Part shown: positions 7,273 to 32,080 of the stretch, piece by piece
Position numbering within the stretch: position 1 is the first letter of the stretch
Layout: each line of letters opens with the position of its first letter
DNA from: a virus
DNA length: 44,006 nucleotides
Direction: 5' to 3' (one strand)
IMG/VR virus record: IMGVR_UViG_3300027971_000086
Coordinates: 1 to 44,006 of that record
Program-made: the position numbers and the translations under genes
The notes under the pieces: generated by a model
The model's database searches: none
The model's input: only the letters and a program-made list of their open reading frames with translations
What the model was told of the DNA's origin: nothing

Positions 7273-8457
7273 ATGTCACAACTACTAACAAGTCGTTGGC
7301 AGGAGACCAAAGAGGCCCTACTAGAAGGTCTTCAAGGTACAAAGAAATCAGTGATGGGTGTTACTTTAGAGAATACACGTAAGTATCTCGCAGAGAGCGC
7401 AACAGCTGGTGGCACATCTGCTGGCAACGTAGCAACACTAAACCGCGTGATTCTTCCAGTAATCCGTCGTGTTATGCCAACCGTTATCGCTAACGAGTTA
7501 CTAGGCGTTCAACCAATGACTGGACCAGTTGGCCAAATCCATACTCTACGTGTTCGTTATAGCGACAGTGTTGCCGGCAGTCAAGACGGCAGTATCGTTG
7601 GTGTAACAGCAGGTGAAGAGGCACTAAGCCCATTCAAGATTGCTGAGCAGTATTCCGGTGCTAGCACTGGTAAGGCTGCAAGTACAGCAGCTCTTGAAGG
7701 CGTAGCTGGAAAGCGTATGAGCATTCAAATCCTCAAGCAAACAGTTGAAGCTAAGACACGTAAGCTATCAGCTCGTTGGACATTTGAGGCAGCTCAAGAC
7801 GCACAAGCCCAACAAGGTATTGACATCGAAGCTGAAATCATGGCAGCTCTAGCACAAGAAATTACTGCTGAGATTGACCAAGAGATCCTAGCAAGCCTAA
7901 ACAGCTTGGCAGGTACAGCAGCGTTGACATACAACCAAGCACAGGTCAGTGGTACAGCCACATTCGTTGGTGACGAACATGCTGCTCTAGCAGTTCAAAT
8001 CAACCGTGTTGCAAACATCATTGCACAGCGTACACGTCGTGGCGCTGGTAACTGGGCAGTTGTAAGTCCATTTACACTAACAATTCTACAAAGCGCAACA
8101 ACATCAGCTTTTGCACGTACCACTGAAGGTACATTCGAAGCTCCAACAAACACCAAGTTTGTTGGTACACTAAACGGCGCAATGAAGATTTATGTTAACA
8201 CATATGCTCAAGATACCGCTGATATCCTTATTGGATACAAAGGTACTAGCGAAAGCGATGCAGCAGCATTCTACTGCCCATACGTTCCATTAATGAGCAG
8301 TGGTGTTGTACTAGATCCAACAACATTCGAACCAGTCGTAAGCTTTATGACACGTTACGGATATGTTGAATTAAGTAATACAGCAAGTTCTCTTGGTAAC
8401 GCAGCAGACTACCTAGGTAAGGTAGCTATTAATAGCGGAAACGTTAAGTTTAGCTAA
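7273..8457 (+). CDS. 23: Major capsid protein gp23
   Basis: This is the hexamer-forming shell protein with the HK97 fold. At 394 residues it is clearly shorter than T4 gp23 (521) and may lack the T4 insertion domain. Conserved gp23 stretches include PTVIANELLGVQPMTGPVGQ (about 77-96), GAGNWAVVSP (about 257-266), and the C-terminal block with ADILIGYKG...AAFYCPYVPLM...FEPVVSFMTRYGY. A gp21-type cleavage site LAE|S ends at Glu41, aligned with LTE|A of T4, so the mature protein would start at about residue 42. The SD AAGGAGAT lies 9 nt upstream. It is the last gene before a strong terminator. Confidence 0.97.
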   Translation: MSQLLTSRWQETKEALLEGLQGTKKSVMGVTLENTRKYLAESATAGGTSAGNVATLNRVILPVIRRVMPTVIANELLGVQPMTGPVGQIHTLRVRYSDSVAGSQDGSIVGVTAGEEALSPFKIAEQYSGASTGKAASTAALEGVAGKRMSIQILKQTVEAKTRKLSARWTFEAAQDAQAQQGIDIEAEIMAALAQEITAEIDQEILASLNSLAGTAALTYNQAQVSGTATFVGDEHAALAVQINRVANIIAQRTRRGAGNWAVVSPFTLTILQSATTSAFARTTEGTFEAPTNTKFVGTLNGAMKIYVNTYAQDTADILIGYKGTSESDAAAFYCPYVPLMSSGVVLDPTTFEPVVSFMTRYGYVELSNTASSLGNAADYLGKVAINSGNVKFS

Positions 8458-13465: not shown

Positions 13466-16400
13466 ATGAGCACTAATATCAGATTTAAACGCAGTGATGT
13501 ACCAGGAAAAGTACCATCACTAGATGCACTAGACCTAGGCGAATTAGCCATTAACAGTGCCGACGGCAAACTGTTTACTAAACAAGAATTTAAACCACCA
13601 GGTGGTTTAGCAGCAATCCAGAAGATTGTTGAAATCGGCGCGACAGCAGTACCTAATGTACTATATGTTAGTAAAGGTGGTGATGACAGTAACAGTGGTA
13701 AAACATTAGGGGAGAGTTTTGCAAGCCTAAAAAAGGCATTAAGCATTGCGACCCCTGGTACAACCATATTTTTGAAAAGCGGAGAATATATCGAAGATAA
13801 TCCGCTAAGAGTTCCTGCTCGTGTTTCAGTTGTTGGTGACAACTTACGTAATACCACAGTTCGTCCAAAGAACCCAACAAAGGACATTTTCTGGGTTTAC
13901 AACGGTGCTTATATTTTCTGTATGAATTTCAAAGGACACATTGCTCCTTCAGCAGCGGTCTGTTTCCCTCCAGACGGTAGTGCTGGTGAAATTGTAACTT
14001 CCCCATATACCCAAGCGGTAACTAGTATCACAACAACTGGTACAGGTATGCGTGTTGACGGTGCTGTAACTACTGGACTACGTTCAATGGTTTGCGATGC
14101 GTTCACACAGTACAACCAAGGTGGTGTTGGTATTCACATGTTGAACAGAGGAAACACACAGTTAGTTTCCATCTTTACAATTTGTTGCGATATTTCTTTC
14201 CTATGTGAAAGCGGTGGTTTCTGCTCAGTTAACTTATCAAACAGCTCATTTGGTAATTATGGACTAGTAAGTCGTGGTGCTAGTGAAATTTTATATCGTG
14301 GTGTTGTTAAGAAGTCAAGTGGACGTCAAATCACATTTAAGAATTTAGCCAAGCGTCCAAACATTGGTGACGGTGTATTATTTGCCAACTATAATCAAGC
14401 TACATGTAATAGAGACAATGGTCTAGTAGTAGATAGTTTAGCATTTGACCTATTACACGAAGGCACAACACAAAGTACATTTGCTGGTCTACGTTATTGG
14501 GCCAAAGACATTATTGAAATTGAAGATCAAGGTGAAGAAACTGTAGCAGCAATTGATTTTGCTCAGAAGGTTATTAAAAAGATTATTAATAAAGATGCTT
14601 ATACACCTTTAAGTAGTGAATCTCCAGTTTCACCAAGTGTAGCACTTGTACCTTCGGCACAAAGATTAATCAATGACGAATTCAGTATCATCAGTAAAAT
14701 TGTTAAAAATGGCCCAATCAGTCCAAAAGTTATAATTACTGCTGATTATGATTTGGCAGAACCTGAATATAAATTTTTAAGAGAACAAGTATTAGATCGT
14801 AAAGCCGAAATTCAAGATCAAACAATTGCTTTCATTAACAGAACATTCCCAAGCTTAAAATATGTTCAAAGCAAATGTTCTAGAGACGTTGGTTTAATTA
14901 TTGATGCTGTAATTAATGATGCGGTATTTAATACAAATTATCTAACAGTTAAGGCAGCCAGAACATATCTAAGCATTACTAATGGTTTAGTTATTCCAGC
15001 AGAAACAAAAACAGCCACAATTGAAGCTATTAAATTTGTTCGTGACAAAGTTATTGCACTATTGACTGAAGATGCTACTTTTGCTGGGTACGCCACTGCT
15101 AATTTCAAAATTATCACCGATGCATTAACAGATGCTAGTGGAGCAGGTGTTAGCTCATCATTGAACGCTGAAGTTTTAAGATATACAACTTATCAGGATA
15201 CTAACACTGATGTTAATAATCTTGTTGTAAACTTACAAGCTAACAAAGATTTTATCAAAGCATCAGTAATTCAGTATATTAATGATAACTATCCATCATT
15301 AAGAACAAGTTATTCTGAAACTGTTTGTGCTAGAGACATTGGATATACCCTTGATGGTATTTGCTATGACTTAGCTTATGGTGGCAATGCTGAAACACTT
15401 GATGCAGCCAAGAGATATTATAGCTATGCTAATGGTACAAGACAACTTGCTGAGTTTGAATTCCCTGCTACAGTTGACGCTTATGGTCGTGTACAACTAC
15501 TAAGCCAACGTGTGGTAATTTTAGATGTAATTCAAAGCAGTGGTCTAAGCGAAGATCAAGTTTTTGCACTTGACGGCGCTGATCTAGTTGCAACAAATCA
15601 AACTCAAGTTAACAGACTAGGTGGACTATTCCAACTATTCTTAAAACAGATTGAAAAAGAAATTGTAGCTACCAGTGATTTTATTCAGTCAAATGGTGCT
15701 AAGTTAGATGACGAAGATTTAGATGATGCTTATGATACACTACAGGCCAACAAGGCATTTATCAAAGCTGAAGTTATTGCGTACCTAACCAATACATATC
15801 CAGCATTTGCCTATGATAGAGTTAAATGTGCTCGTGATATTGGTTACATTATTGATAGTATTTGTTTTGACATCACTCACGGCGGCAATCGTCAAATTGT
15901 ACAGGCAGGTATCTACTACTATGGTTTCAATGACAAATCAAATGTATTGACATCTGTACTACCAAAACAAAATAAGCAAACAATTAATGCTTATCTATAT
16001 TTGAAAGAGCTATTAGCAGATGTAATTACATCTAAGCCAACTCCAAACCCATGGCAAGGTGCTATTCCACAAAGATTAGCTACAGCTGATATGCCAGCAG
16101 CCACAGCGGCAGAATGCAGTGCTATTAATAACCTAATCGATGTAATTGTTGAAATTCTTCGTGAAGGCCCAAACAATGCTGAGGATTCAGTACAAAGAGC
16201 AAGACAAGCTATTAGCTTAACACCTACCACTGATATCAATAAGATCAGAGCATTTGACTTATTAATGGCTAACAAAGAATTTATTCAAGCTGAATTAAAA
16301 GCTTACATCAATATTAATTGGTATGAAATCAGTGATGGTGATACACAGTTTGCTCGTGTTAGCAAGGCAACTGAACTAACATTAGGTACAACTACAACTG

Positions 16401-19400
16401 GTTATCCAGTGACAACTTATCAGCCAGCATCACTTAAAGCTATTAGAGATGCAGTATTAGCAGCTAAAGAAGATATCAAAACAGAAACAATTAAGTTCAT
16501 GGCTAACAGTTTCTTTGATAACTTCAGTTTCAACAAGCCAAAGTGCTACAGAGACGTTGGGTTAATCCTAGATGCTATTCTAAGTGACATGATATTTGAC
16601 AGCAACTATAAGACAATTACTGCTGCTGCTAGTTACTTCCGTGCTTATGCTAGTGATGTTATTGGACCACAGAAGGTCCAAACAATTGCTGCACTAGAAG
16701 CTACTAAAGTATTAACATTAGAGCGTGTGGTTACTCCAGCTGCCAAGACAGCAATTGCCACAAGATTTGATATTTTATTAGATATTATTAAGAATGGCAC
16801 TGTTGACGATCCTTTTGCAACAGCTCCTGCAATTACATATCCTCTACCACTAAGAAACAGTGAGGAAGATATTGAGCGTAAACAGGCTGTAACAATCCTA
16901 AGAAATAATATCAACTTTATCAAAGAAGAAATTGCTGATTATGTTGATGCCAACTTTACTCTAATGGATTATGACAGAGAAAAATGTGCTCGTGACGTTG
17001 GTTTAATTATTGATGCACTAGGTTGGGACTTAATGTTTGGATCAAACTTCCGTGCTATTACAGCTGGTCGTAGCTATCAAAGAGTTGATGCTGCTAAAGT
17101 AGTTAAAAATCAAAAGTTAGCTACAATTGGTGCATTCAAGCAACTTAAGAAAGTGCTTGCTGAATCAGTAAAATTAAACACACTAGCAGTTAACAGTATT
17201 CAAAGAGGTATGGACATCATTATTGACATCGTTCAAAGCAATGGTGCAGATGTTCCAAAGTATATTATTCCATTCCCAACAAGCGGACGTGATGTTGGTT
17301 ATAAGAGAGCAAGAGACCTAGTTGAAAAGAACAGAGAGTTTATTGTCAGTGAAGTATTAGCATTTATCAGTGCAGGCGGTAATTCAGATTATCCATTTGA
17401 TGCTCCATTAGGTTATGACGAAGTTAAATGTGAGCGTGATTTAAATCTAATTCTAGATGCTGTATACTATGATATCACTTATGGCGGTACATTAGAGTCT
17501 GAAGTTGCTGCACGTAGTTACTTTGTTGGCGCACTAAGTCAGTTAGACCCAAGTGGTAGCAATGCTGATGAAGTTACCGCTACATTAAATGCTTATGAAT
17601 ACTTGAAAGATGTATTAGCATTAATTGCTGTTGATTCAGCAGTGACAAGAACAGCAGGCAATACCACAGTACAGTTAAGAAGCCCAACTGGCAGCGATGG
17701 CAGTTCACAAGCTGCTGCTGATATGGTTGCTCTAGTTAATTTAATTAGATTATATATTAATGAGGGCAATGCAACTGACGGTGCTCTTACAATTGCAGGC
17801 ACTGTTTCTCAGCCAAACACTAAGTGGGTTGATCCTGCTCTAGTAGCACAATATAGAGTTCTACAAGATGAAAAAGTAGCTGTAAAAGATGCAATTGTTG
17901 ATTATGTCAATACAAACTATGTAGTATTTGGTTATGACAGAGATACATGTGCTCGTGACGTTGGTTTAATTATTGATGCTGTACGTTATGACATGATGTT
18001 TGGCGGCAATTTCCAAAGTATCACGGCTGGACGTAGTTACTGGAGAGCCCAAGCAAGTGTTGTAAGAGATGACCAAAAAGTGGCCACTCTAGCAGCATTT
18101 GAATTATTAAAAACAAAACTATTATTAGTTGTTGGCAGCAATGTCACAGCTAAAGCCACTGTAACATCTTGTATGGATGCTATTCTAGCAATTATTGACA
18201 GAGGCTTAACCGCTGCTCCAGTAATTGTGTGGCCAGTTCCAACAGATGAAACTGTTGGCACACCAAATGCATATACTCAGGCTTATCTAGATGCTAGAGA
18301 TGATATTCAAACTGCTAAGGAAAGTCTTGTTAGTACCGTTAATCAATGGGTTCTTGATGCTTATAATAATGATGATTATGCCGGCGACGGATTTATCTAT
18401 GGCCCAGCGCAACAAGCTAATTGTCAAAGAGATTTAAGATTTATCATTGATGCTATTTGTTATGATTTAACATACGGCGGAACAATGCAGAGTGATATTG
18501 CTGCTCGTGCTTATAGAAGCGGAGTTACAGGCGATTCTGTATTAGTTTCCGGTGACTTGCAAGTTACAATTGATGCTTATGGAATATTAGCCGATGAACT
18601 AGCAGACGCAGTTATTGGTGTAGGACCTAAGGCTAGAGTTGCTGCTCTAGCTGATCGTATTGCTGCTGTTATTGGTGGCGATACTAGCGCTACAACTCTT
18701 GCACCTACAGATTGGGTTGCTGCTAGTTTGACCACATTAAGTGATGCAATGAGCGATGCTAGTACATCTATTCAAACTGCGGTAACTGCATTTGTTGATG
18801 CTAATTACGCTTACAATAGAGATAAGTGTAAGCGTGACGTTGGTTACTTAATTGATGCTATGAGTTATGATTTACTATATGGTGGTAATCTTGACACAGT
18901 TTCAGCAGCTCAAAGTTATTTTGATGGTGCTATTACTCCAAGAAGTATTATTCCTAAAGAAATCATTCAATCTGTTGCTGCTTACGAAAGACTAAAAGAA
19001 GTAATTCAAGATGTGGTACAATTAAGAGATGTAGTACCAAGTAGTAACAAGTTTGTAGCTGGTGAAAGAGTTGCAGCTGGCATGGATCTAGTTAATAGAA
19101 TCCTAAACAGTGGTGAGAGTGTTGCTCCAACAAGACCATGGGCACTACCACTTCCAACAGGCGGTGCAGATAATGCCAGCGTCAAGTATGACGGTACTAG
19201 TATTTCTGGGTATCTAAATGCTAGAAACTTAATTGAAGCTAACAGAGACTTTGTTAAAGCTGAAGCTATTGCTTATATTACTACAAATTATTCTGCTGTC
19301 GTGTATAATCAAGAAACATGTAAGCGTGATATTGATTATATCCTAGATGCAATTTATTATGATATGACTTACGGTGGTAATTCACAAACTAGAATTGCAG

Positions 19401-22400
19401 CACAAGCATATTATTCTGGTGCTTCACAATTGGGTGCAGGTCAAAAGGCTGCCACAGTTGCTCTATTTGCTCATTTAGCTGATATCTTAGAAAGTCTTTC
19501 TAAAGGCTCAGCAATAACTGTATCAACTGGAAATACAGTTGTTCAGAAGCGTGGAGATACCGCACCTAGTCAACAGCGTGATGTTAGTCCGTTTAATGGT
19601 GCAACTCATGCTAAGACATTAATGACAACCGTTCGTAATTACGTTAATAATGACACATTAGCTGCTGAAGATCTTCCAGATACAAGTTGGGTAGATAGTG
19701 GATTAATTACTATTTCAACATTGTTAGATGCTGAAGCTAGTAGTGGTACATCGCCAAACTATAACAGCACAATTCAAACTGCTGTTACGGCTTTTATTGA
19801 CACAAATTATCCAGATTTAACATATGATGATGCAAAATGTCGTAGAGACATTGGCATAATTGTTGATGCTTTACGCTTTGACATGATGTTTGGTACAAAC
19901 TTTGCTACTACTGTAGCTGGACGTAGTTATAGTCGTGAAGTAGCATCAGAAGTTAACGGCGATCAGAAACAAGCTACATTGGCAGCATTTAACTTTGCTA
20001 AGGCCAAGTTATTAGAACTTATTGCTGACAACTCAAATCTACAAAACAAGGAAGGTATTACTGGTAGTAGTACTGCTGCTAGTGCTGCACGTACTTTAGT
20101 AGGTATTGTTTACAATTCCATCTTTAATCAAGCTGCACCAAGTGCAGCTACAGCTCCTAGTGCAGACGACTTAGCTTGGGTAGAACAAGAGTTAGTAGAC
20201 ATTAGTGATGCAATGGATAATGATAGAGCAAATATCAAAACAGCAGTTACAGACTACATTACTAAGAATTATAGTGATTTAGACTATGAAGTAAGTACAT
20301 GTCAACGTGACGTAGAGCTTGTTATTGATGCTGTACGTTATGACATGATGTTTGGCAGTAACTTTAAGACAATCGTAGCTGCTCGCAGCTACTATCGCAG
20401 CCAAGTTGTTAACGGTGACTTTACTAGCCTCGGCCAAAAGCCTGCTACAATTACTGCTTTTGAACTACTAAGAGAAAAATTATTAGTTCTAGCAAGTGGC
20501 AATGAAACAGCCAAAGCCCGTGTAACAGCTAATATGGCATTGTTCTTAAAGATTCTAGCCAAAGGCGAGGAAGCAATTCCAGCATTTGACTTACCGAGCC
20601 CAACTGGTTATAACACTGCTGCTTTCAAACTAAACTATGCCAATAGCAGAAACTTAATTAATGCTAACAGAGAGTTCTTTAAAGCTGAATTAGTTAAGAA
20701 AATTGTTACATTTGGTACTGATGATGATGTTCAATTTAATGTTAATGTTTGTTTAAGAGACGTTGACTTTATTATTGATGCTGTATGTTATGACTTAACT
20801 TATGGTGGAAATACAGAAACTACCAATGCTGCGGCATCATATTATGCTAGTAACGCAGATGGAATTACTAATTCAGTTCCAAGTGCTCAAAGATTAGCTA
20901 CAGCTGATGCATATAGCTACTTGAGAGATTTAGTAGAGGGTGTTGCTCTTAATCAAGATTTAAGCCCAATACAAATGAAAGTTCCTCAGGTATTTGGTCC
21001 TAAAGCTAGTTTAGTTGGCAGTCAAGCTGGTAGAAATCTTGCATGGAATGTAAGAGATCATATCAGTACAACTACAGCAGATCCTGCTAAAGTTTATCCA
21101 GATCTAAGTTGGGTTGACGGTATTGCCCCAAGTGAAGCTACTCGTGGTTCATTAGAAAACTTTGCTGTTCTATTAGGCAAGTATAAGACTAATAATCTAG
21201 TAGCAACCACAGCAGATCAAGTGATTCGCATTGGTTTACCGGATCAGTTAACCAGCTATAGCATAGCTCGTTTAGGCGGTTTAGATGTTACTGATTTTGA
21301 TACAGTTAACAATGAAATTACTACTGATAGTAATCATGGATTAGAAGTAGGTGACATTGTAGTATTTAAAGGCACACTAACAGGTACAGGACTAACAGCC
21401 GATGTACAATATTATGTGTTAACAAAAACTTCTGACACATTTACTTTAAGTGCTACTAGAACAGGCACCACTCCAGTTGATATTTTAGGCAGCGGCAGCG
21501 GCGTAACTATTAATAACTATAATATTACTAAGTGTAAGCGCGATGTTTCTCTTATTTTAGATGCTGTTCGTTATGACATGGCGTTTAATACCAAGTTCAA
21601 GACAATTGTAGCAGCAAGAAGCTACTTACGTAGTCAAGCTAGTGCTATTACTGGCAGTCAAAAAGCTGCTTCTCTAGAATTGTTCACAGAAATGAAAGCA
21701 AAACTACGTACTTTAGCTACTCAAGCTACTAGTACACTAGGTATTATTGGTGTTCGCGACGGTGGCGGCGGTGGCGAAACTGGCACAACTGGTCCAATTT
21801 ACACTAGAATTAGTGAACTAATGGATCTAGTTATCAATACTATTGATGATGAGGATGAAAGTAACTTACCAGTGAAGCCATATTCATTACCATTGCCAAC
21901 TGGATTGAACACAGTTCTTGGTACACCTATTAACTCGTTTAACAGAGGTTTCCTAAATGCTAGAACAGCAATTGAAACCAATCGTGAGTTCATCAAGGCA
22001 GAAATGATTGCTTGGATTGACGATCAAGCTAGACGCAATGTTAATGGATTTAATAGTAACTTAGATGGAACTCCATTCACTTATAGTCGTGTTACTTGCT
22101 TACGCGATTTAGACTATATCTTAGATGGTATCTATTATGACTTAACTTACGGTGGTAACACAGAAACCATTAACAGTGGCACTTCTTATTACTCAGGTCT
22201 TGGTATTCAAAGTTTAGACGAAGCAGACGCATATGCTTCTGAACAGGCTTATGATTACTTAGGCAGAATTATTTTAGATGTTACACGCAATGTTCTAGTT
22301 GACAGTGTTCAAACTGCTGTACCACAAGTACGTGGTGCTGCTGCTGGAGCTAAAGCTGCTCAAACACTAGAAATTCTAAGTGACACAGTCATTAACATTG

Positions 22401-25400
22401 TTAAAGGCGGTGTAAAACAAGTTCCAGAAAGAATTGAGCCAGACTTCCTAGCTGGTGATGAAACACTAGCTTATGTAAGATCAACACTACAAGAGCAGAA
22501 GAAAAATCTACAAGCTCGTATTGCTGATTATATTGACAGCTATATTTTACAATACAACACAGAAAAATGTGCTCGTGACGTTGGCTTAATCATTGATTGT
22601 GTCATGTATGACTTAGTACTAAACAGCAACTTCCAAAGTATTACAGCAGGTAGTGTATACTTACAGAAGGCAGCTGGTGTGGTTACAAGCTATCAAATTG
22701 GACCACAACTAGAAGCTATTAAGTTTATCAGAGACAAGTGTGTTGCAGTCAGTAAGGCTCCTCCTCTAACAGAGAATCTAGCAGCCATTGCTGAAATTAA
22801 CAATAGATTTGACATTCTATATGACATCGTTGACAAAGGTGTTGAAGTTGCTCCTCCAGTGGTAAATGTTCCACCACAAGGTGCTGCTTTTAATCCAAAT
22901 GCAATCAACGCTGCCAAGTCAATTATTGCTAACAAAGAGTTCTTAAAAGAAGAAGCTACTGCTTATATCACAGCTAACTATAAGACTTATGACCAAAGCC
23001 GTTGTGCTCGCGACGTTGGCCTAATCATTGATGCTGCACTATTTGACCTACTATTAGGTACAAACTACAACAGTATCAAGGCAGGCTTATCATATCGCAG
23101 AGCAACCAGCAGCTTGGTAGTTAGTGATCAACTAACAGAAACATTAGGTGGTATTGATTTTGCTCTAAGAAGAGTTACAGCTCTTACAACTGACGCAACA
23201 GCTATTGCTAGCATTACAGCCAGTTTTGAACTAATCAAGAACATCATTTCAGGCGGTTCAATCCCAGTAACACAACTACCACTAGCTGGCGGAAGTGTTT
23301 ACTCTCTACCAAGAGCAAGTGGAAAAGTATTCCGTAGCAGCTCTTACTTTGATGCAGTTGCAGAGATCAAGAGCAATGTTGCTTCTATTGCAACAGCAGT
23401 AAGTGATTATATCATTGCTCAAATTGATGGTGGATCTAATCCAGCATTTAAGGACTTTGAATATGGTGCTGGTACTCCAGATGGTGTTGCTAGACAAACT
23501 GCTTGTGAACAAGACATTGGTTATATCTTAGAAGCATTATGCTATGACTTAACCTATGGTGGTAACATGGAAACAGTTAACGCTGGTCGTGCTTACTACG
23601 CGGGTCTAGGTGCTCTAGAAAGTCTAGAAGGCGAAGGTACTGAAGTAGCTGCTACTTATGAAGCTTATACATTCTTAGCCAAGTATCTATCCGAAGAAGT
23701 TCTTCAAGATGCTGGCATTCCTGAGAATGTTGCTGTAGAAGCAGAGCGTCTAATATTAGGAATTAGAAACCTAGTTGACGCGGGCGAGAACAGCAATCCA
23801 ACAGTAGTTACACCGGATCTAACTTGGGTATCCACTGACAGATCAGAATATGTAACACTAGATGGCAACATTTTAACTGATAAAGAAGTACTTAAAACTG
23901 AAATAATTAACTTTGTTAACAGTAACAAGTCTAATTTTGCAAACAATACACATTTTGACGCAGCCAAATGTGAACGCGACTTAGGATACATTTTAGATGC
24001 TGTATTCTATGATGCAATGACAGGCAGTAACTATCAAACTGTTACAGCTGGTTTATCATATCGTAGACTTGATGCTGGTGATGTATTAACAATCGATCAA
24101 AGATTTGCCACAATTAGAGCACTACAAAAAGCTAAGTTGTTGGTATTGGCAGTAAGCAGTGTTAATAGTACTGTAAAGGACAGATTGAAAGCTAATCTTA
24201 CAACTGTTATTGACCTTATCAGTGACAGTGGTTATGATACATCAGCACCAACCTTAGTATTCACAAATAACATAGTAACTACAACTGATGCTCAAAAAGC
24301 CACAGCAATCGATTTACAGACAAATAGAGCATCTATTAAGACAGCTTTAGTTGCTTGGTTCACAGGCTCAACTGGTAGTGCTGGTGTTGACTACTATGAC
24401 GGTGGTGCATTCTGGACAGGTCTAACACAAGCTAAGAGAGAAGCATGTACTCGTGACGTTGGTTATATCATTGATGCACTAACATATGACTTGTTATATG
24501 GCGGTGCAGGTAATCTTGGCAACTGGGCTACCAAAATTAATGCTCGTGCATACTTTGTTGGTAATGTATCTCAGTTAGGTACAGATTCAGATGAGAAAAC
24601 AGCAACATTGGCTGCTTATGCGAAACTTAAGACTTTGATTGCAGCATCTGTTGATGATACATTAACTAGTAGATCAGAAACATTAATTGATCTCATTATA
24701 ACTGAAATTACCGATGCCGGTAATGATGGTATTCCAGATGAGGACACTTTCAATGCTACTATTGTTAAGCCACCACTAACTGGTAATACTAATAGTTCTA
24801 GTTTAACTAACTTAAACAATGCCAAAGCAGACATTATTTCTGACACATTGGATTATATTGTAACTAGAGAGTTTGATCAATTTGATGAAGCAAAATGTGC
24901 TAGAGACGTTGGTTATATGATTGACGCACTACGCTATGACTTACTATTTGGCACAAGCTTTAGAAGTTATATCGCTGGACGTAGCTATACACGCGAAGCA
25001 GCAAGTCGTGTTTATGCTGGTGGTGATGAATTTATTGCTACATACGCAGCTATTACACACTTGAAGTCATTGATGCTTGGTATTGTTGTTGAAAATGCAG
25101 CAGTGCTTATCAGTGCAGATGCTCAAGCAAGACTCAAAGCTAACTTTGAAATCATTAGACAGTTCTTAGAAGGCAATGATGACCCAACTTATAGTACTTT
25201 AGCATTATGGAGTAGTGGCACAACTTATGCAGCCAATGCTGTTGTGTTCTACAAAGGCACTGCTTATCGCTCATTAGTTGGTAGCAACACAAATCATAAC
25301 CCAATTACCGCAACAACTTATTGGGTTCAGCAGTCAGTTCCAACAGGTGGTACAGATAATATCTTTACAACAAGTATTGCTACTGCTCGCAATAACATTG

Positions 25401-28400
25401 CTAAGAACAGAGACTTTATTATTGATGAAGTATTGGCCTACATCGATCAAGAAAGTGGAGCCAATAGCGGTGACGGAAGAGGAAACTTTAGAAGCGACGA
25501 GTATCCATTCTTTGCGTTATCAGGACCTCAGAGAGATACATGTGAACGCGACTTAGGTTATATGATTGACGCTTTCCTCTTTGACTTAACCTACGGTGGA
25601 AACTTAGAAACATTTGTAGCTGGTAGTGCTTACTATAACGGTACTGTACTAGGTGCAGGCGAGAAATTAGGAACATTAGACGCATACAAGTATCTAAGTG
25701 CTATCATAGCAAAAGTTGCTGCTGGTAATGCTACTATTCCTGAAGCAATAACAGGTACTTATGTACAAGGTACAACTGGTGGTAATACTGCTAGAATTAT
25801 TTCATTAGTTGATCTAGTGATTGATTTCATTGATGCTTGCCCGATTGATCCAAGAGTAGTTACTCCAAGTACAGATTGGGTTGCAAGTAAGCTATTCGTG
25901 TTCAGTAATGCGCTAAACGATGCTAAGACCACAGTGGCCAAAACAACTACTGATTATGTTCTAGCTAACTTCCCAGAGCTTGGTGACGGTTTTGTTACTA
26001 AGTGTCGTAGAGACATTGGCTTGATTATTGACGCAGTTCGTTGGGACATGATGTTCAACACCAATTTCAGAAGCGCCGTAGCTGCTCGCAGCTATTATCG
26101 TGCTCAGGCAGCTACTGTTCTTGGTGTTCAGAAGGCAGCTACAAAGGCAGCATTTGGAATTGTTAAGACTGCACTACAAGATATTGTCAAGTCTGATGAT
26201 ACAGCTTATGCTAGAGTTGGTGCTAGCATGGACTTGGTCATTGACATTATTGAAGATGATGCGAATGTTCCAACACTACAAACAGGCCTAGATTATTACG
26301 GTGGCACTGTAAGTAGTTTTGACAGTGGTTATCTATCTGCTAGAGATCGTATTGAAGCTAACAGAGACTTTATTAAGGCTGAAATTGCTGCTTATATTGA
26401 GCGCACAAGCGCAAGTCCAGCAGCTCCAGCTGACTATGATAAGGCAACATGTTTACGCGATGTTGATTATATCTTAGACGCAGTACGTTATGACTTAACA
26501 TACGGTGGCAATCTAGCAACCGTAGAAGCTGGTCGTGCGTATTACAATGGTACATCATTCAGTGCTGATTACAGAGCAGACGAAATTGCTGCAACTGTGG
26601 CTGCATATGAAAGATTACGTGTGATCCTAGGTCAAATTGCTCAAAATGCTACAGTTACTAAGACAACAACTGGACCAAGTGCTAATACATTAACTCAGTC
26701 TACAAGCGGGCTTGCAGGTAGTGTAGCTGGTGCTGCTACTGCACAGGCTCTCATTGTTGACTTGAAGACATATATTGATTCCACTCCAGGTGCAAGCAAT
26801 AATGCTGCTGAAAGACTACCTAATACAAGTTGGGTTAACAGCCAGTTTGTGTCATTTGCTACAACAATGGGTGACAATAAAGAAAGTCTTGGTTTACAAG
26901 TAACTGATTATGTTGACGCGAACTTCCCAACACCATTTACATATGACAAAGAAACATGTGCCCGTGATGTTGGTTACATTGTTGATGCTGTACGCTATGA
27001 TATGATGTTTGATAATAATTTCAGAAGCTATGTAGCTGGACGCAGTTATTATCGTGCTCAGGCAAGTCTTGTAGTAGGTGATCAGAAAGAAGCTACATTG
27101 TCCGCGTTCAAGTTCTTAAAGGACAGATTACTAGCGATTGTGGCTGGCAATGCTGAAGCTACAAAGAGAGTAACAAGTGCAATGCGTACTGTGTTAGACA
27201 CAATTAATTTAGGTGAAACAACTAGAAATAGTTATGATCCATTAATTAGCACAGCAGTTGGTTTACTTGGTACAAATAAAGCAAGTCTATTATCTCAGAT
27301 GGGTACATATCTAGATACTGCTGATAATAGCTTTACATTCACTTACTATAACAAAACTACATGTTTACGCGATATTGGTTATGTAATTGATGCTATCAAG
27401 TATGACTTGACTTACGGTGGCAATATGGAAACAGTTGTTGCTGGTCGTGCATACTATGAGGGTGTAGTACTAAGAAACGCAGGTCAAACTACTGGTCCTA
27501 CTCATATTGCAGCCACTAAGGCAGCATTCACTGAGTTAGGCGTTAAGATTGCTGCTATTAGCACTTTCCCAGGTAGTGTGGCTGATAGAGCTAAGGCATT
27601 ATTAGCTAATGTTAATGCATTAATTGACGACGACGCAAGTGTTACAGAAGTTTACGCAGACGCTTCGTGGTCCGATACATCTGTAAAAGAAATTGCTGCT
27701 GCTATGTTAGACAATAAGGTAGCATTAGGAACTGCTGTTACAGATTATGTAACTGCCAATTTCCCAGAACTAGCAGGTGTATATAATGTAGAAAAATGTG
27801 CTCGCGATGCTGGATTACTAGTTGATGCAGTTCGTTGGGATATGTTATTTGCCAGCAACTTTAGAAGTATTGTAGCTGGTCGTGCATATTACAGAGATGC
27901 GTTAAATCTAAATGCCGATGGATTAGCTAGCTTAGATCAAAAGAAAGCTTCAATTGCAGCGTTCTCTTACTTGAAAGAGCAGTTATTAGCTCTTGCTACA
28001 GGTAATAAAGTTGCTAGTACTAGTATTGCAGCCAACATGGATGTGATTTTAGAAATACTAAGCACAGGATTAGGCGACAATTCTGCAACAGTGGCATTAA
28101 GTATTCCAGATGGTACTCGTACTAACACAGAGTATAATGATGCTAAAACTTATCTATTAGCTAATAAAGCCAGTATTGTAAATGAAGTTGTTAGTTATAT
28201 CAATACAGACTTAGGTCCTTTTATCGAAAACGGTGGTGACACTGGATATAATGAAACTAAGTGTGCTCGCGATGTTGGTTATATTGTAACTGCTGTAGCT
28301 TATGACTTAGTAACAGGTAGTAACTATCAAAGTACTATCGCTGCACTACGTTATCTAGGTAACAGTGCTGTTAAAGTACTAGGCGCAAAAGAAAAGCACA

Positions 28401-31400
28401 TGACAATCCTAAGCTTAAGACACCTCAAGCACTTGTTAGCTTCAATTGTGGCTAGCCATGCTGCATCCGTTACTGCTGTTAAGGCCAGTATGGATCTAAT
28501 CATTAACATTATTAATGTTGGTGATGATGCGGTTGCTGACGCATTAACAGGAATGACATTCCCAACAAGCAATGTTACATCAACTGCTCAAACTGCATTA
28601 CGTGCTGATAGACAAGATATCATTGATGATATTGAGACTTTCTTAACAGGCTATACCGTAGGTGGATTTAGTTGGACAGCATTAGCTGGTAGACAAGCCA
28701 CATGCTTACGCGATGTTGGATATATTATTGACGCAATCACATATGACTTAACATACGGTGGTAACTGGGCAACAACTATTGCTGCTCGTGCTTACTACGT
28801 GGCTGTGTTAGGCGGCAGTGATGTTTCAAATCTAGATCCAGATAACAACAGTCCTTTAGAAAAGGCCGCTACATTGGCTGCTTACGCAGAACTAAAAACA
28901 TTGCTCACTGGTTATACTGGTTCAGGTGATTTAGTTGACATCATTACTGATGTAGTTGATAATGGATTAAGTGCTCTTCCAACAGTTCAGTATCCAGAAT
29001 TGCTCAATGCAAATGCTGACAAGTCAATTGCTAAAAACAACTTGTTAAATTCAGTTGATGTTGTTAAGACTAAGACAATTAGATATATCAATGAAAGAAC
29101 ATATTTCCAATATGATTCTGTCAAGTGTGAGCGTGACTTAGGTTACATCTTAGATGCTGTGTTCTATGACATAGTAACTGGCAGTAACTATCAAAGCGTA
29201 ACAGCTGGTCTTGCTTATACAAGACTTGATGCTGAAGATGCAATTAGTCCTCCACAGAAGTTTGCTATCCTGGCTGCTTTAACTCGCGCTAAGAGTCTTG
29301 TTGCTAATGTTGTAAGCACTAATGCTGCTGCTGTAACAGCAATTAGAGATAAGCTATCCATTGTTATTGACATTATCAATGATGAAGGAAATGCTCCAGC
29401 TCTAAGTTTCCCAACAGGAAATGTTACAACTACAGCAACTAACACATTACAGACTAACAGAGCAACTATTATCTCTGATTTAGACACTGCAATGGCTGGT
29501 TATACAGTAGGCACATTTGCTTGGGATACATTTGCAGGTACTGGTGCCAGATATGATACATGCTTACGCGATGTTGGTTTAATTGTTGATGCATTAACAC
29601 ATGACTTAACCTACGGTGGTAACTGGGCAACTGTTATTGCTGCTCGTAGTTATTTTGCAGGTGTTTCAGCTCAATTAGGAACTGACGCTGATGAAGTTAC
29701 TGCTACAGTAGAAGCTTATGACAGACTAAAAACTGTTATTGCTGCTCGCGTATCAGGACAAACAACTGACGCTAATAATTTAATCAACGTTATTAGAACT
29801 TATATTGGCGGCGGAAGCTTACCAGCTATCACTTACCCAACATTGGCGGGTGCTGATACAAAGCCTAACGCAAGTATTTTTGCATCTAAAGCAGCCTTAG
29901 TCGCAGCCAAAGAGAATCTAGTAATTGCAATCCAAGATAGTATTAATGATGTTCCATATATTAGAAATGGTGCTTATGACGCTGTTAAGTGTGGAAGAGA
30001 CGTTAATCTTATTATTGAAGCAATTGGTTGGGACTTAATGTTTGGTACTACATATCGTACAGTTAAGGCTGGACAGTCATACTTAAGAAGTTATGCTAAG
30101 ACAGTAACCAGCGAACAGAAAGCTGCTACAATTGGTGCTCTATACTTTGTTAAGAAACAGTTAACTAGTATTGTTTCTAACGCAGGCAATCGTACAACAT
30201 TACGTGGATTGATGGATATTGTTATTGATATCCTAGATCGCGGTGTAGTAGCAATTCCAGCGTCAGACGATATCACAATGCCAGCTCCAACAGCTGGAGC
30301 AGGTACTGCATTTAATAGTACTTACGCAGATGGTATTACAACTATTGTTAATAATACAAGCTTTATAAAAGCAGAAGTTCGTGCTTGGATTGCTAGAAAT
30401 TATCCAGAACTAGATTATGACAAGAACGTTTGTGAAAGAGACGTTGTTTATATTCTAGAGGCACTACGTTACGATATGACTTACGGCGGAAACACTCAAA
30501 CTGTAGAAGCTGGTCGTTCTTACTTAGAGGGCACTGCATTAACATTAGGAGTCAAACCAATCGATCCTAATAATCCTAGTAATCTAAACTATCTCAATGA
30601 TCCTGATTCAAAACTTCCTGGCGGAGAAACTGAGAAAGTTGCCACAGTTGGTGCTTACAATTTCTTAGGTGGATTGTTAAGAGATCTAATATCCGATGAG
30701 GTTATTTCTCCACAACAAACTATCGTGGAAGTTGGTACAAGAGTTGGTGACAGCAGTGCTGTCGGGCTTCGTGCAAAGGGCTTAATTGACGGTATTAAGA
30801 ATATTGTCGATCAAGAAGATGTTGATTTTGTAGCAGTAGTTGTTCCATCATATACTTGGGCAAGTGTTGCTTCTAAGGCATCTTATGCTTTATTAGTTGC
30901 TGCAACAACTTTAGATGATGATGTAGTTTCTGCAATTACTGATGCATATGAAGATCAGTGGTTCGTATACAATGAAGACAAGTGCGCTCGCGACCTAGGA
31001 TTTATTGTTGATGCACTAGCTTATGACTTAGCATACGGTGGAAACAGAGAAACTAGAGATTGTGGTGTACAGTATCTATACAAAGGTGGTATTGTTATTC
31101 CAACAGGAACCAAAGGACCAACATTATTGGCTATTGGCAACTTGATTAGTAATATTTACGATCGTCTAGATGGTGAAGATTACGACACATCTATAGCAAC
31201 AGAATCAAGTGATATCCTAAGTGACAACGTTTACGCTGTGTTGAAGACTGGAGTTGCTCCCGCATTAGTGATCCCAGACTTAACTAAGGCTGACACTGAG
31301 TATGTATTACTACGCGATTTGGTCCTAGACAATGTTCCTACAATTCAAGCCGACACAATCACATTCATCAATACAGAGTATGCTGGATTTGGTTACAAGC

Positions 31401-32080
31401 AAGAAACATGTAAGCGTGACATTGGCTTAACATTGGATGCTGTGGCTTATGACTTGATCTACGGTGGAAACAGTAGAACCAAGTATGCAGCAGAGCAGTA
31501 TTTCAGTGGTGGTAGATTACAGATCCCAGCGGATAGTAAGACTGCTACAGCAGCCTGCTTCAACTACTTAGATTTCTTAGTTAGACTAGTGATTAAGAAT
31601 GAGTATATTACTCCATTCCAATCATATGCTAGCCAAGATACAAGTAATGTAGCTGCTACACAGGGCGAAGTGACCAACGTTGCAGCATTGTTTGACGCGT
31701 TCACTGATATCGTTACAAACGGTTATATCAGTGTAGTGACACTAGATGCTACATTTAAGTCAAGTGTTGATGACAATACATACGCAACTTTCCACCAAGT
31801 TAGCCAGATTACAACAACTGGCCACACACTAGAGTGGGTAGGAACTGGTATTGACGTTGACAGTGCGTTACCATATAATGGTGGGGTACCGATTGAGGCC
31901 AATGAGATTGTCAGTGAAAATGGTGGATTCATCAACTTCACTAGCACAGACCAGAAGGGAGACTTCAAGATTGGACCAGAACTAACAATTAAACGTGACT
32001 CAGGTTCGATTGTTGGTAGAGCATTTAACAAGAGCTTGCTAGGTGTTATTACACCATACATCCTAGCATTGAATGAGTAA
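13466..32080 (+). CDS. Giant 6,204-residue virion/fibre protein with 36 helical repeats
   Basis: An uninterrupted frame of 18.6 kb (roughly 0.65 MDa). Residues 1-45 (IRFKRSDVPGKVPSL...LGELAINSADGKLFT) are a typical fibre N-terminus of the Mtd_N-like kind. Residues about 65-300 look like a right-handed beta-helix: LYVSKGGDDSNSG, then TIFLKSGEYIEDNPL, typical of pectin-lyase-like phage adhesins. From residue 314 to about 6,080 there are 36 repeats averaging 162 residues, each marked by CxRD(V/I/L)G-x-I-(I/V/L)-DA-x-x-YD and a Gly/Asn turn. They look alpha-helical. The last 95 residues (GHTLEWVGTGIDVD...FINFTSTDQKGDFKIGPELTIKRDSG) form a separate beta cap that I recall from marine phage structural proteins. 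An HGL-type domain (about 2,600-2,685) and a CBM5/12-like module (about 3,913-3,960) are embedded. No enzymatic repeat motif is known to me. SD AAAAGGGA. Confidence 0.93.
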   Translation: MSTNIRFKRSDVPGKVPSLDALDLGELAINSADGKLFTKQEFKPPGGLAAIQKIVEIGATAVPNVLYVSKGGDDSNSGKTLGESFASLKKALSIATPGTTIFLKSGEYIEDNPLRVPARVSVVGDNLRNTTVRPKNPTKDIFWVYNGAYIFCMNFKGHIAPSAAVCFPPDGSAGEIVTSPYTQAVTSITTTGTGMRVDGAVTTGLRSMVCDAFTQYNQGGVGIHMLNRGNTQLVSIFTICCDISFLCESGGFCSVNLSNSSFGNYGLVSRGASEILYRGVVKKSSGRQITFKNLAKRPNIGDGVLFANYNQATCNRDNGLVVDSLAFDLLHEGTTQSTFAGLRYWAKDIIEIEDQGEETVAAIDFAQKVIKKIINKDAYTPLSSESPVSPSVALVPSAQRLINDEFSIISKIVKNGPISPKVIITADYDLAEPEYKFLREQVLDRKAEIQDQTIAFINRTFPSLKYVQSKCSRDVGLIIDAVINDAVFNTNYLTVKAARTYLSITNGLVIPAETKTATIEAIKFVRDKVIALLTEDATFAGYATANFKIITDALTDASGAGVSSSLNAEVLRYTTYQDTNTDVNNLVVNLQANKDFIKASVIQYINDNYPSLRTSYSETVCARDIGYTLDGICYDLAYGGNAETLDAAKRYYSYANGTRQLAEFEFPATVDAYGRVQLLSQRVVILDVIQSSGLSEDQVFALDGADLVATNQTQVNRLGGLFQLFLKQIEKEIVATSDFIQSNGAKLDDEDLDDAYDTLQANKAFIKAEVIAYLTNTYPAFAYDRVKCARDIGYIIDSICFDITHGGNRQIVQAGIYYYGFNDKSNVLTSVLPKQNKQTINAYLYLKELLADVITSKPTPNPWQGAIPQRLATADMPAATAAECSAINNLIDVIVEILREGPNNAEDSVQRARQAISLTPTTDINKIRAFDLLMANKEFIQAELKAYININWYEISDGDTQFARVSKATELTLGTTTTGYPVTTYQPASLKAIRDAVLAAKEDIKTETIKFMANSFFDNFSFNKPKCYRDVGLILDAILSDMIFDSNYKTITAAASYFRAYASDVIGPQKVQTIAALEATKVLTLERVVTPAAKTAIATRFDILLDIIKNGTVDDPFATAPAITYPLPLRNSEEDIERKQAVTILRNNINFIKEEIADYVDANFTLMDYDREKCARDVGLIIDALGWDLMFGSNFRAITAGRSYQRVDAAKVVKNQKLATIGAFKQLKKVLAESVKLNTLAVNSIQRGMDIIIDIVQSNGADVPKYIIPFPTSGRDVGYKRARDLVEKNREFIVSEVLAFISAGGNSDYPFDAPLGYDEVKCERDLNLILDAVYYDITYGGTLESEVAARSYFVGALSQLDPSGSNADEVTATLNAYEYLKDVLALIAVDSAVTRTAGNTTVQLRSPTGSDGSSQAAADMVALVNLIRLYINEGNATDGALTIAGTVSQPNTKWVDPALVAQYRVLQDEKVAVKDAIVDYVNTNYVVFGYDRDTCARDVGLIIDAVRYDMMFGGNFQSITAGRSYWRAQASVVRDDQKVATLAAFELLKTKLLLVVGSNVTAKATVTSCMDAILAIIDRGLTAAPVIVWPVPTDETVGTPNAYTQAYLDARDDIQTAKESLVSTVNQWVLDAYNNDDYAGDGFIYGPAQQANCQRDLRFIIDAICYDLTYGGTMQSDIAARAYRSGVTGDSVLVSGDLQVTIDAYGILADELADAVIGVGPKARVAALADRIAAVIGGDTSATTLAPTDWVAASLTTLSDAMSDASTSIQTAVTAFVDANYAYNRDKCKRDVGYLIDAMSYDLLYGGNLDTVSAAQSYFDGAITPRSIIPKEIIQSVAAYERLKEVIQDVVQLRDVVPSSNKFVAGERVAAGMDLVNRILNSGESVAPTRPWALPLPTGGADNASVKYDGTSISGYLNARNLIEANRDFVKAEAIAYITTNYSAVVYNQETCKRDIDYILDAIYYDMTYGGNSQTRIAAQAYYSGASQLGAGQKAATVALFAHLADILESLSKGSAITVSTGNTVVQKRGDTAPSQQRDVSPFNGATHAKTLMTTVRNYVNNDTLAAEDLPDTSWVDSGLITISTLLDAEASSGTSPNYNSTIQTAVTAFIDTNYPDLTYDDAKCRRDIGIIVDALRFDMMFGTNFATTVAGRSYSREVASEVNGDQKQATLAAFNFAKAKLLELIADNSNLQNKEGITGSSTAASAARTLVGIVYNSIFNQAAPSAATAPSADDLAWVEQELVDISDAMDNDRANIKTAVTDYITKNYSDLDYEVSTCQRDVELVIDAVRYDMMFGSNFKTIVAARSYYRSQVVNGDFTSLGQKPATITAFELLREKLLVLASGNETAKARVTANMALFLKILAKGEEAIPAFDLPSPTGYNTAAFKLNYANSRNLINANREFFKAELVKKIVTFGTDDDVQFNVNVCLRDVDFIIDAVCYDLTYGGNTETTNAAASYYASNADGITNSVPSAQRLATADAYSYLRDLVEGVALNQDLSPIQMKVPQVFGPKASLVGSQAGRNLAWNVRDHISTTTADPAKVYPDLSWVDGIAPSEATRGSLENFAVLLGKYKTNNLVATTADQVIRIGLPDQLTSYSIARLGGLDVTDFDTVNNEITTDSNHGLEVGDIVVFKGTLTGTGLTADVQYYVLTKTSDTFTLSATRTGTTPVDILGSGSGVTINNYNITKCKRDVSLILDAVRYDMAFNTKFKTIVAARSYLRSQASAITGSQKAASLELFTEMKAKLRTLATQATSTLGIIGVRDGGGGGETGTTGPIYTRISELMDLVINTIDDEDESNLPVKPYSLPLPTGLNTVLGTPINSFNRGFLNARTAIETNREFIKAEMIAWIDDQARRNVNGFNSNLDGTPFTYSRVTCLRDLDYILDGIYYDLTYGGNTETINSGTSYYSGLGIQSLDEADAYASEQAYDYLGRIILDVTRNVLVDSVQTAVPQVRGAAAGAKAAQTLEILSDTVINIVKGGVKQVPERIEPDFLAGDETLAYVRSTLQEQKKNLQARIADYIDSYILQYNTEKCARDVGLIIDCVMYDLVLNSNFQSITAGSVYLQKAAGVVTSYQIGPQLEAIKFIRDKCVAVSKAPPLTENLAAIAEINNRFDILYDIVDKGVEVAPPVVNVPPQGAAFNPNAINAAKSIIANKEFLKEEATAYITANYKTYDQSRCARDVGLIIDAALFDLLLGTNYNSIKAGLSYRRATSSLVVSDQLTETLGGIDFALRRVTALTTDATAIASITASFELIKNIISGGSIPVTQLPLAGGSVYSLPRASGKVFRSSSYFDAVAEIKSNVASIATAVSDYIIAQIDGGSNPAFKDFEYGAGTPDGVARQTACEQDIGYILEALCYDLTYGGNMETVNAGRAYYAGLGALESLEGEGTEVAATYEAYTFLAKYLSEEVLQDAGIPENVAVEAERLILGIRNLVDAGENSNPTVVTPDLTWVSTDRSEYVTLDGNILTDKEVLKTEIINFVNSNKSNFANNTHFDAAKCERDLGYILDAVFYDAMTGSNYQTVTAGLSYRRLDAGDVLTIDQRFATIRALQKAKLLVLAVSSVNSTVKDRLKANLTTVIDLISDSGYDTSAPTLVFTNNIVTTTDAQKATAIDLQTNRASIKTALVAWFTGSTGSAGVDYYDGGAFWTGLTQAKREACTRDVGYIIDALTYDLLYGGAGNLGNWATKINARAYFVGNVSQLGTDSDEKTATLAAYAKLKTLIAASVDDTLTSRSETLIDLIITEITDAGNDGIPDEDTFNATIVKPPLTGNTNSSSLTNLNNAKADIISDTLDYIVTREFDQFDEAKCARDVGYMIDALRYDLLFGTSFRSYIAGRSYTREAASRVYAGGDEFIATYAAITHLKSLMLGIVVENAAVLISADAQARLKANFEIIRQFLEGNDDPTYSTLALWSSGTTYAANAVVFYKGTAYRSLVGSNTNHNPITATTYWVQQSVPTGGTDNIFTTSIATARNNIAKNRDFIIDEVLAYIDQESGANSGDGRGNFRSDEYPFFALSGPQRDTCERDLGYMIDAFLFDLTYGGNLETFVAGSAYYNGTVLGAGEKLGTLDAYKYLSAIIAKVAAGNATIPEAITGTYVQGTTGGNTARIISLVDLVIDFIDACPIDPRVVTPSTDWVASKLFVFSNALNDAKTTVAKTTTDYVLANFPELGDGFVTKCRRDIGLIIDAVRWDMMFNTNFRSAVAARSYYRAQAATVLGVQKAATKAAFGIVKTALQDIVKSDDTAYARVGASMDLVIDIIEDDANVPTLQTGLDYYGGTVSSFDSGYLSARDRIEANRDFIKAEIAAYIERTSASPAAPADYDKATCLRDVDYILDAVRYDLTYGGNLATVEAGRAYYNGTSFSADYRADEIAATVAAYERLRVILGQIAQNATVTKTTTGPSANTLTQSTSGLAGSVAGAATAQALIVDLKTYIDSTPGASNNAAERLPNTSWVNSQFVSFATTMGDNKESLGLQVTDYVDANFPTPFTYDKETCARDVGYIVDAVRYDMMFDNNFRSYVAGRSYYRAQASLVVGDQKEATLSAFKFLKDRLLAIVAGNAEATKRVTSAMRTVLDTINLGETTRNSYDPLISTAVGLLGTNKASLLSQMGTYLDTADNSFTFTYYNKTTCLRDIGYVIDAIKYDLTYGGNMETVVAGRAYYEGVVLRNAGQTTGPTHIAATKAAFTELGVKIAAISTFPGSVADRAKALLANVNALIDDDASVTEVYADASWSDTSVKEIAAAMLDNKVALGTAVTDYVTANFPELAGVYNVEKCARDAGLLVDAVRWDMLFASNFRSIVAGRAYYRDALNLNADGLASLDQKKASIAAFSYLKEQLLALATGNKVASTSIAANMDVILEILSTGLGDNSATVALSIPDGTRTNTEYNDAKTYLLANKASIVNEVVSYINTDLGPFIENGGDTGYNETKCARDVGYIVTAVAYDLVTGSNYQSTIAALRYLGNSAVKVLGAKEKHMTILSLRHLKHLLASIVASHAASVTAVKASMDLIINIINVGDDAVADALTGMTFPTSNVTSTAQTALRADRQDIIDDIETFLTGYTVGGFSWTALAGRQATCLRDVGYIIDAITYDLTYGGNWATTIAARAYYVAVLGGSDVSNLDPDNNSPLEKAATLAAYAELKTLLTGYTGSGDLVDIITDVVDNGLSALPTVQYPELLNANADKSIAKNNLLNSVDVVKTKTIRYINERTYFQYDSVKCERDLGYILDAVFYDIVTGSNYQSVTAGLAYTRLDAEDAISPPQKFAILAALTRAKSLVANVVSTNAAAVTAIRDKLSIVIDIINDEGNAPALSFPTGNVTTTATNTLQTNRATIISDLDTAMAGYTVGTFAWDTFAGTGARYDTCLRDVGLIVDALTHDLTYGGNWATVIAARSYFAGVSAQLGTDADEVTATVEAYDRLKTVIAARVSGQTTDANNLINVIRTYIGGGSLPAITYPTLAGADTKPNASIFASKAALVAAKENLVIAIQDSINDVPYIRNGAYDAVKCGRDVNLIIEAIGWDLMFGTTYRTVKAGQSYLRSYAKTVTSEQKAATIGALYFVKKQLTSIVSNAGNRTTLRGLMDIVIDILDRGVVAIPASDDITMPAPTAGAGTAFNSTYADGITTIVNNTSFIKAEVRAWIARNYPELDYDKNVCERDVVYILEALRYDMTYGGNTQTVEAGRSYLEGTALTLGVKPIDPNNPSNLNYLNDPDSKLPGGETEKVATVGAYNFLGGLLRDLISDEVISPQQTIVEVGTRVGDSSAVGLRAKGLIDGIKNIVDQEDVDFVAVVVPSYTWASVASKASYALLVAATTLDDDVVSAITDAYEDQWFVYNEDKCARDLGFIVDALAYDLAYGGNRETRDCGVQYLYKGGIVIPTGTKGPTLLAIGNLISNIYDRLDGEDYDTSIATESSDILSDNVYAVLKTGVAPALVIPDLTKADTEYVLLRDLVLDNVPTIQADTITFINTEYAGFGYKQETCKRDIGLTLDAVAYDLIYGGNSRTKYAAEQYFSGGRLQIPADSKTATAACFNYLDFLVRLVIKNEYITPFQSYASQDTSNVAATQGEVTNVAALFDAFTDIVTNGYISVVTLDATFKSSVDDNTYATFHQVSQITTTGHTLEWVGTGIDVDSALPYNGGVPIEANEIVSENGGFINFTSTDQKGDFKIGPELTIKRDSGSIVGRAFNKSLLGVITPYILALNE
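14390..31620 (+). repeat. Array of 36 CxRD repeats (about 160 residues each)
   Basis: The conserved Cys codon of successive copies falls, for the first five, at 14405, 14876, 15326, 15827 and 16544 and, for the last, at 31409. Mean spacing is close to 486 bp. Consensus around the Cys: (K/T)CxRDVGxIIDAVxYDxxxGxNxxTxxAxRxYY, followed by QKxATxxAxxxL, a central amphipathic region ending in IIxxG, a proline-rich linker with P-x-P, then NRxFIKAExxxYI and aromatic-xYD before the next Cys. Two subtypes occur: (T)YGGN with A-AYY, and (M)FGSNF with AGRSYY. At DNA level the copies are well diverged, so the array is old, unlike the collagen tract downstream. Confidence 0.93.

Follow-up and report, generated by a model that had tools for sequence, protein, structure and literature searches.

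A giant tail-fibre-like phage protein with 36 tandem units predicted to share the phycobiliprotein fold

In many phycobiliproteins, and in the lyase-independent globins known as BBAGs (bilin biosynthesis-associated globins; PMC10151467), bilin attaches at a CXRD motif. BBAGs occur in heterotrophic bacteria as small proteins encoded beside heme oxygenase and pre-PcyA, and Rockwell et al. reported that two of these CXRD globins from outside light harvesting, BBAG-1 and BBAG-3, bind bilins without lyases (PMC10151467). Phages also carry bilin-related genes. Wegner et al. left open the purpose of phage bilin enzymes (PMC11480375), and Sullivan et al. called the role of phage cpeT unresolved (PMC3037559). 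The same study detected T4-GC969, a giant cyanophage protein, in S-SM1 particles by mass spectrometry (PMC3037559). T4-GC969 belongs with T4-GC734 and T4-GC830 to a set of giant cyanophage proteins (phrog_4527, phrog_5342, phrog_701, phrog_18802 and phrog_3442) that are annotated as tail fibre or structural proteins. We found that these proteins contain about 3–8 copies each of a unit that is present 36 times in a single protein of the phage described here. Our search of the open-access literature yielded no paper that recognizes the unit as phycobiliprotein-like, and none that describes phage tails assembled from domains of the phycobiliprotein fold, a use that appears to be undescribed.

The window analysed here is a complete IMG/VR record of 44,006 bp, which means that it is a fragment of an incomplete genome. 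Its giant gene (13466..32080, + strand) has an ATG start and no internal stops and encodes 6,204 aa (668.8 kDa). It sits in a T4-like structural cluster, with portal (1290..3017, +; phrog_213, E = 1.6e-117), protease and major capsid protein (7273..8457, +; phrog_138, E = 4.1e-99) genes upstream and fibre-like and collagen-like genes downstream. The N-terminal part (aa 1–202; 13466..14071, +) matches the tail fibre protein family phrog_17885 (E = 2.3e-67), the first ~285 aa are 42–45% identical to cyanophage tail-fibre proteins, and PHROG tail-fibre matches extend to aa 278. A β-helix or pectin-lyase-like region overlaps this part (about aa 62–305; 13649..14380, +), with DUF1565 above the Pfam cut-off at aa 72–127 and Pect-lyase below it. 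At the other end, a cap (aa 6080–6204; 31703..32077, +) matches positions 879–1002 of phrog_17885 (E = 3.1e-31). The phrog_17885 profile is 1,002 positions long. The window protein resembles it over ~200 aa at the N-terminus and over the C-terminal cap, and the match leaves out the unit array.

The original prediction, made from the DNA letters and their translations, was of one continuous 18.6-kb gene for 6,204 residues with a fibre N-terminus, a β-helix, 36 repeats and a C-terminal cap, and this anatomy is what we found. A fibre N-terminus, β-helix and fibre C-terminal cap inside a structural cluster are the features by which we recognize a T4-like tail fibre. The reading of the protein as a giant rope or side fibre also fits, both with this anatomy and with what is known of its relatives, since mass spectrometry detected one relative in a virion. 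The giant protein is very probably a virion fibre or tether. As part of the virion, its shaft would act as a spaced rod or rope that brings the tip to the host.

The array of units spans 14405..31702 (+), with the first motif at aa 314 and the last at aa 5982. It contains exactly 36 C-x-[RQ]-D motifs, in which Cys and Asp are present in 36/36 and Arg in 35/36; unit 19, which reads CEQD, is the sole exception. Spacing from motif to motif averages 161.9 aa (median 154, range 135–261), in good agreement with the predicted unit of about 160 residues. An HMM of the units found one extra match that lacks the motif, near aa 919. The motif cysteines make up 36 of the 55 Cys residues in the giant protein, and cores of neighbouring units are on average only ~29–33% identical. 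The invariant columns of the window units are C, D, D and Y. The motifs first proposed as invariant were therefore partly correct: the Cys and Asp of CxRD stand, the Arg has its one exception, Asp-Ala is not fully invariant, and only the Asp of Tyr-Asp is. Two types of window unit, F-G-x-N and Y-G-G-N, tend to take turns along the array: 25 of the 35 steps are switches (p = 0.013). We considered an alternating two-type array resembling alpha and beta subunits and set it aside, as the statistical support was weak (p = 0.013 and 0.036).

We modelled units 26–28 (26813..28081, +) with AlphaFold2 without templates and obtained three linked globin-like domains with a pLDDT of 86.3. Unit 26 modelled alone (26813..27229, +) gave a pLDDT of 94.1 and a pTM of 0.89, with six helices in 139 residues; the third helix has the motif Cys in its first turn. 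When this model was compared with 350,542 PDB chains using Foldseek, the top 50 matches were all phycobiliproteins, the bilin domain of ApcE or smURFP (probability 1.00, TM mostly 0.6–0.7, with modest E-values of 0.014–0.11). In a viral library, the leading Foldseek matches were giant phage tail proteins. The modelled unit begins at the helix that aligns with phycobiliprotein helix A, and the N-terminal X/Y helical hairpin responsible for alpha–beta assembly is absent from it. Judging from these models, the unit almost certainly has the phycobiliprotein fold, which is the branch of the globin fold that binds bilins.

Sequence comparisons pointed the same way. Phycobilisome (PF00502) was the only Pfam model above its cut-off within the array (3e-13; 50.5 bits against a cut-off of 22.2), and the match covers two stretches in the second half; the best stretch (aa 4892–5014) includes unit 29 (28097..28546, +). 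PF00502 was also the only Pfam family to match more than one of 68 single units. Ten units matched at E ≤ 0.1, and these single-unit matches are mostly sub-significant (best E 7e-6). The commonest single-unit matches in NCBIfam were phycocyanin alpha and allophycocyanin ApcA, each of them weak. Phycocyanins ranked first when a profile of the window units was run against 177,635 PDB sequences, and about 50 of the 59 matches were phycobiliproteins; a profile built mostly from phage units outside the window again ranked phycocyanins first, with phycobiliproteins accounting for 33 of 34 matches. These alignments place the phage C-x-R-D onto the C-A-R-D of phycocyanin KCARDIGYYLR, its bilin cysteine motif. 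In a profile–profile comparison with CpcA/CpcB sequences taken from cyanobacterial genomes, the score was 38.3 over 94 columns (E = 3.4e-6), whereas 40 block shuffles scored 15.1 ± 2.1. With the four motif columns masked, the score equalled that of the shuffles, and similarity beyond the C-x-R-D triad was not detected. The case for homology therefore rests on the motif together with the fold, and sequence by itself makes a motif-in-context argument.

The original prediction described the helical repeat as one for which no named family was known, and it gave alignment to a well-characterized domain as grounds for rejection. That description survives in part. The phage repeat has no named family of its own, but its predicted fold is that of phycobiliproteins, and PF00502 matches above a curated cut-off. 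What the units have in common with phycobiliproteins (phycocyanin, allophycocyanin, the ApcE bilin domain and the engineered smURFP) is the predicted fold, the helix pattern aligned over those 94 columns, and C-x-R-D at the corresponding place, the opening turn of the third modelled helix. They differ in being arranged in tandem within one giant polypeptide, in their phage tail context, in having an extra invariant Asp and Tyr, and in that a chromophore is only putative. Because the X/Y helices are absent, similarity outside the motif is undetectable and any pigment is putative, we class the phage unit not among light-harvesting phycobiliproteins but as a phycobiliprotein-like domain set in a new architecture. 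BBAGs are likewise phycobiliprotein relatives outside light harvesting, but the phage units form fibre arrays, and no neighbouring genes of the kind that accompany BBAGs were recognized among the window ORFs examined. Through the phage units, the debate over how phycobiliproteins arose gains a large pool of CxRD globin-like domains.

The C-x-R-D site itself is well conserved. Across 775 units, C is present in 90%, R in 88% and D in 95%, and two near-invariant residues are specific to the phage units: an Asp at +14 from the Cys (97%) and a Tyr at +30 (95%). Cys was missing from 67 of 712 units in which all positions were aligned; in its place stood mostly Phe, Thr, Tyr, Trp, Val or Leu. With kinship among the Cys-less units ignored, Arg was present in 96% of Cys-bearing but 27% of Cys-less units, Asp in 99% against 64% and the distal Tyr in 99% against 55%, while A59, D63, N69, N23 and E30 changed little or rose. 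Joint loss of C, R, D and Y with the scaffold kept is what is expected when a single functional pocket is given up. The original prediction had suggested that the Cys might serve in stacking, metal or disulfide contacts, which is not supported; this residue lies in a bilin-attachment motif and disappears together with R, D and the distal Tyr. In two other arrays (L048 and L012), the motif Cys has been lost in 7/10 and 5/9 units, respectively, which makes these arrays natural material for comparing what the site does.

These patterns lead us to favour, though not strongly, the view that C-x-R-D acts as a ligand site. Our overall reading, held with moderate confidence, is of a giant fibre or tether associated with the tail, its shaft built from about 36 phycobiliprotein-fold domains, each with a ligand-binding C-x-R-D-(Y) site. 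Every such site would bind a ligand, for which a linear tetrapyrrole (bilin) is the leading candidate. The bilin would be supplied by the host, or in some phages made by a phage-encoded heme oxygenase and PcyX, and would attach either spontaneously or by way of a CpeT/CpcV-type lyase. That a bilin is the ligand in at least some phages is a tentative suggestion, and phage tails may carry, or may once have carried, bilin pigments.

The strongest competing explanation, to which we give slightly less than an even chance, is that phages re-used a module from a bilin-binding globin, or have it by common ancestry, for structure without any pigment. The C, R, D and Tyr would then form an internal polar cluster or a unit–unit contact that stiffens the rod. 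This would suit the phage-specific Asp and Tyr, the missing X/Y hairpin of light-harvesting phycobiliproteins, and the presence of units in phages without bilin genes and probably without bilin-rich hosts. It fits less well with the joint loss of the site residues, in which mainly bulky residues replace Cys and the rest of the core is kept, as for a vacated pocket. It would also make retention of the exact Cys-Arg-Asp triad a coincidence.

Alternatively, the units could be true biliproteins carrying biliverdin, PCB or PEB, with phage heme oxygenase, PcyX/PebS and CpeT/CpcV serving the virion besides or instead of the host antenna. The shared fold and triad are compatible with this, and it would offer an answer to the questions left standing in the literature (PMC3037559, PMC11480375) about the phage bilin enzymes and cpeT. 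Genomic context provided further leads. In 11 of the 12 cpeT-bearing cyanophages that we examined, cpeT (bilin-lyase-like) lies 0.01–1.8 kb upstream of a unit-bearing giant ORF, which is T4-GC734 where so annotated; the exception is P-HM1, in which the ORFs next to cpeT lack units. Seven cyanophage loci (L289–L293, L296 and L297) have the conserved order cpeT, unit-bearing giant ORF (T4-GC734), short tail fibre gene. This synteny is one inherited arrangement and not a set of independent events, in a region generally rich in host-like genes. In addition, a 318-kb unit-bearing phage contig (G004/L017; 317,722 bp) encodes a heme oxygenase and a PcyX-type reductase in overlapping genes (L096:1498-2710), ~43–90 kb from its units, and the best PDB match of the reductase is 5owg (7e-63).

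However, bilin genes and units do not strictly co-occur. S-ShM2, S-SSM4, S-B43 and DSL-LC03 have units and no significant CpeT match, which together with P-HM1 rules out a strict coupling of cpeT to the units. Units were present in all eight viral contigs of 100 kb or more that carry PcyX, but also in all five large MCP-matched controls without a bilin reductase. The association is therefore non-specific, and we discarded PcyX as an indicator of fibre pigmentation. A scan of 21 large contigs and cyanophages that had been fetched for their units found a bilin reductase in only 1. Conversely, P-SSM2 has ho1 and pebS yet no unit matches, and Pelagibacter phage Mosig (L193) has heme oxygenase and PcyX with no CxRD units in its genome; the Mosig pair lies between tail-fibre/2OG-Fe oxygenase genes and neck genes. 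Given such controls and genomes, we treat the bilin genes and cpeT synteny as leads and not proof. No bilin gene, including heme oxygenase and pre-PcyA, was recognized among the window ORFs examined, and many of the likely hosts make little bilin. We consider true biliprotein units rather unlikely. Less likely still is the broadest version, in which tail fibres of many aquatic T4-like phages would be pigmented structures resembling phycobilisome rods, with a covalent bilin per unit at CxRD and with heme oxygenase, PcyX/PebS and CpeT/CpcV genes serving at least partly to pigment the virion. The units nevertheless give phage-made bilins and phage CpeT a definite candidate acceptor.

A tblastn search of 50,697 phage records found units in 176, all of them cyanophages if one unassigned marine virus is counted, which belongs to the cyanophage family Kyanoviridae. 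The cyanophage genomes have 3–14 unit matches each, spread over several giant ORFs; the T4-GC969 ORF of S-SM1 (SSM1_102) carries 3 units. Well-studied cyanophages such as S-PM2 have giant proteins listed as "hypothetical" or "tail fibre", and these now gain a fold. This distribution in isolates (176/176) would be expected if phycobiliprotein-like surfaces on cyanophage tails were mimics or decoys that engage host factors for phycobilisome assembly or degradation. We regard this as very unlikely, since units also abound in probable non-cyanophages and tails normally remain outside the cell. A pattern scan found units in hundreds of aquatic IMG/VR contigs, and a pattern scan of GTDB contigs, which has low sensitivity, found no unit arrays in cellular genomes.

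The window phage itself has its nearest capsid and portal relatives among Sinorhizobium, Agrobacterium and other jumbo phages. Its capsid protein is closest to that of Sinorhizobium phage Phosso among isolates (71%), and its portal to those of Phosso and Atu_ph07 (48–50%). A protein encoded at 33583-35628 (phrog_8578) offers a host clue, as nearly every relative among isolates is a phage of Caulobacter, Brevundimonas, Agrobacterium or Sinorhizobium. We found no psbA in 39 unit-bearing contigs. With psbA lacking there, and with portal, capsid and the fibre-adjacent protein all pointing to alphaproteobacterial phages, we rejected a cyanobacterial host; the probable host of the window phage is an alphaproteobacterium, not a phycobilisome-bearing organism.

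Expansion of a short repeat gene by misassembly, named in the original prediction as a possible refutation and conceivable for a repetitive gene on a metagenomic contig, is excluded in practice and has a negligible probability, given the low identity of neighbouring cores, a longest exact repeat of 35–39 bp inside the gene, and a collinear array (L009) from a different metagenome. The L009 array has 28 CxRD units in the same order as window units 4 to 36 (l01-w04 ... l28-w36), with 42–88% identity between corresponding units and a few best matches out of register.

Two other ORFs in the window are also repetitive. The fibre-like protein encoded at 11807-13387 contains a 162-bp (54-aa) tandem repeat in 3.7 copies with 85% matches. 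A second giant ORF (37047-44006; at least 2,320 aa) runs off the end of the contig and consists of hundreds of collagen-like G-V-Q triplets interrupted by short W-R-G...Y-W modules; TRF counted ~617 copies of a 9-bp unit there.
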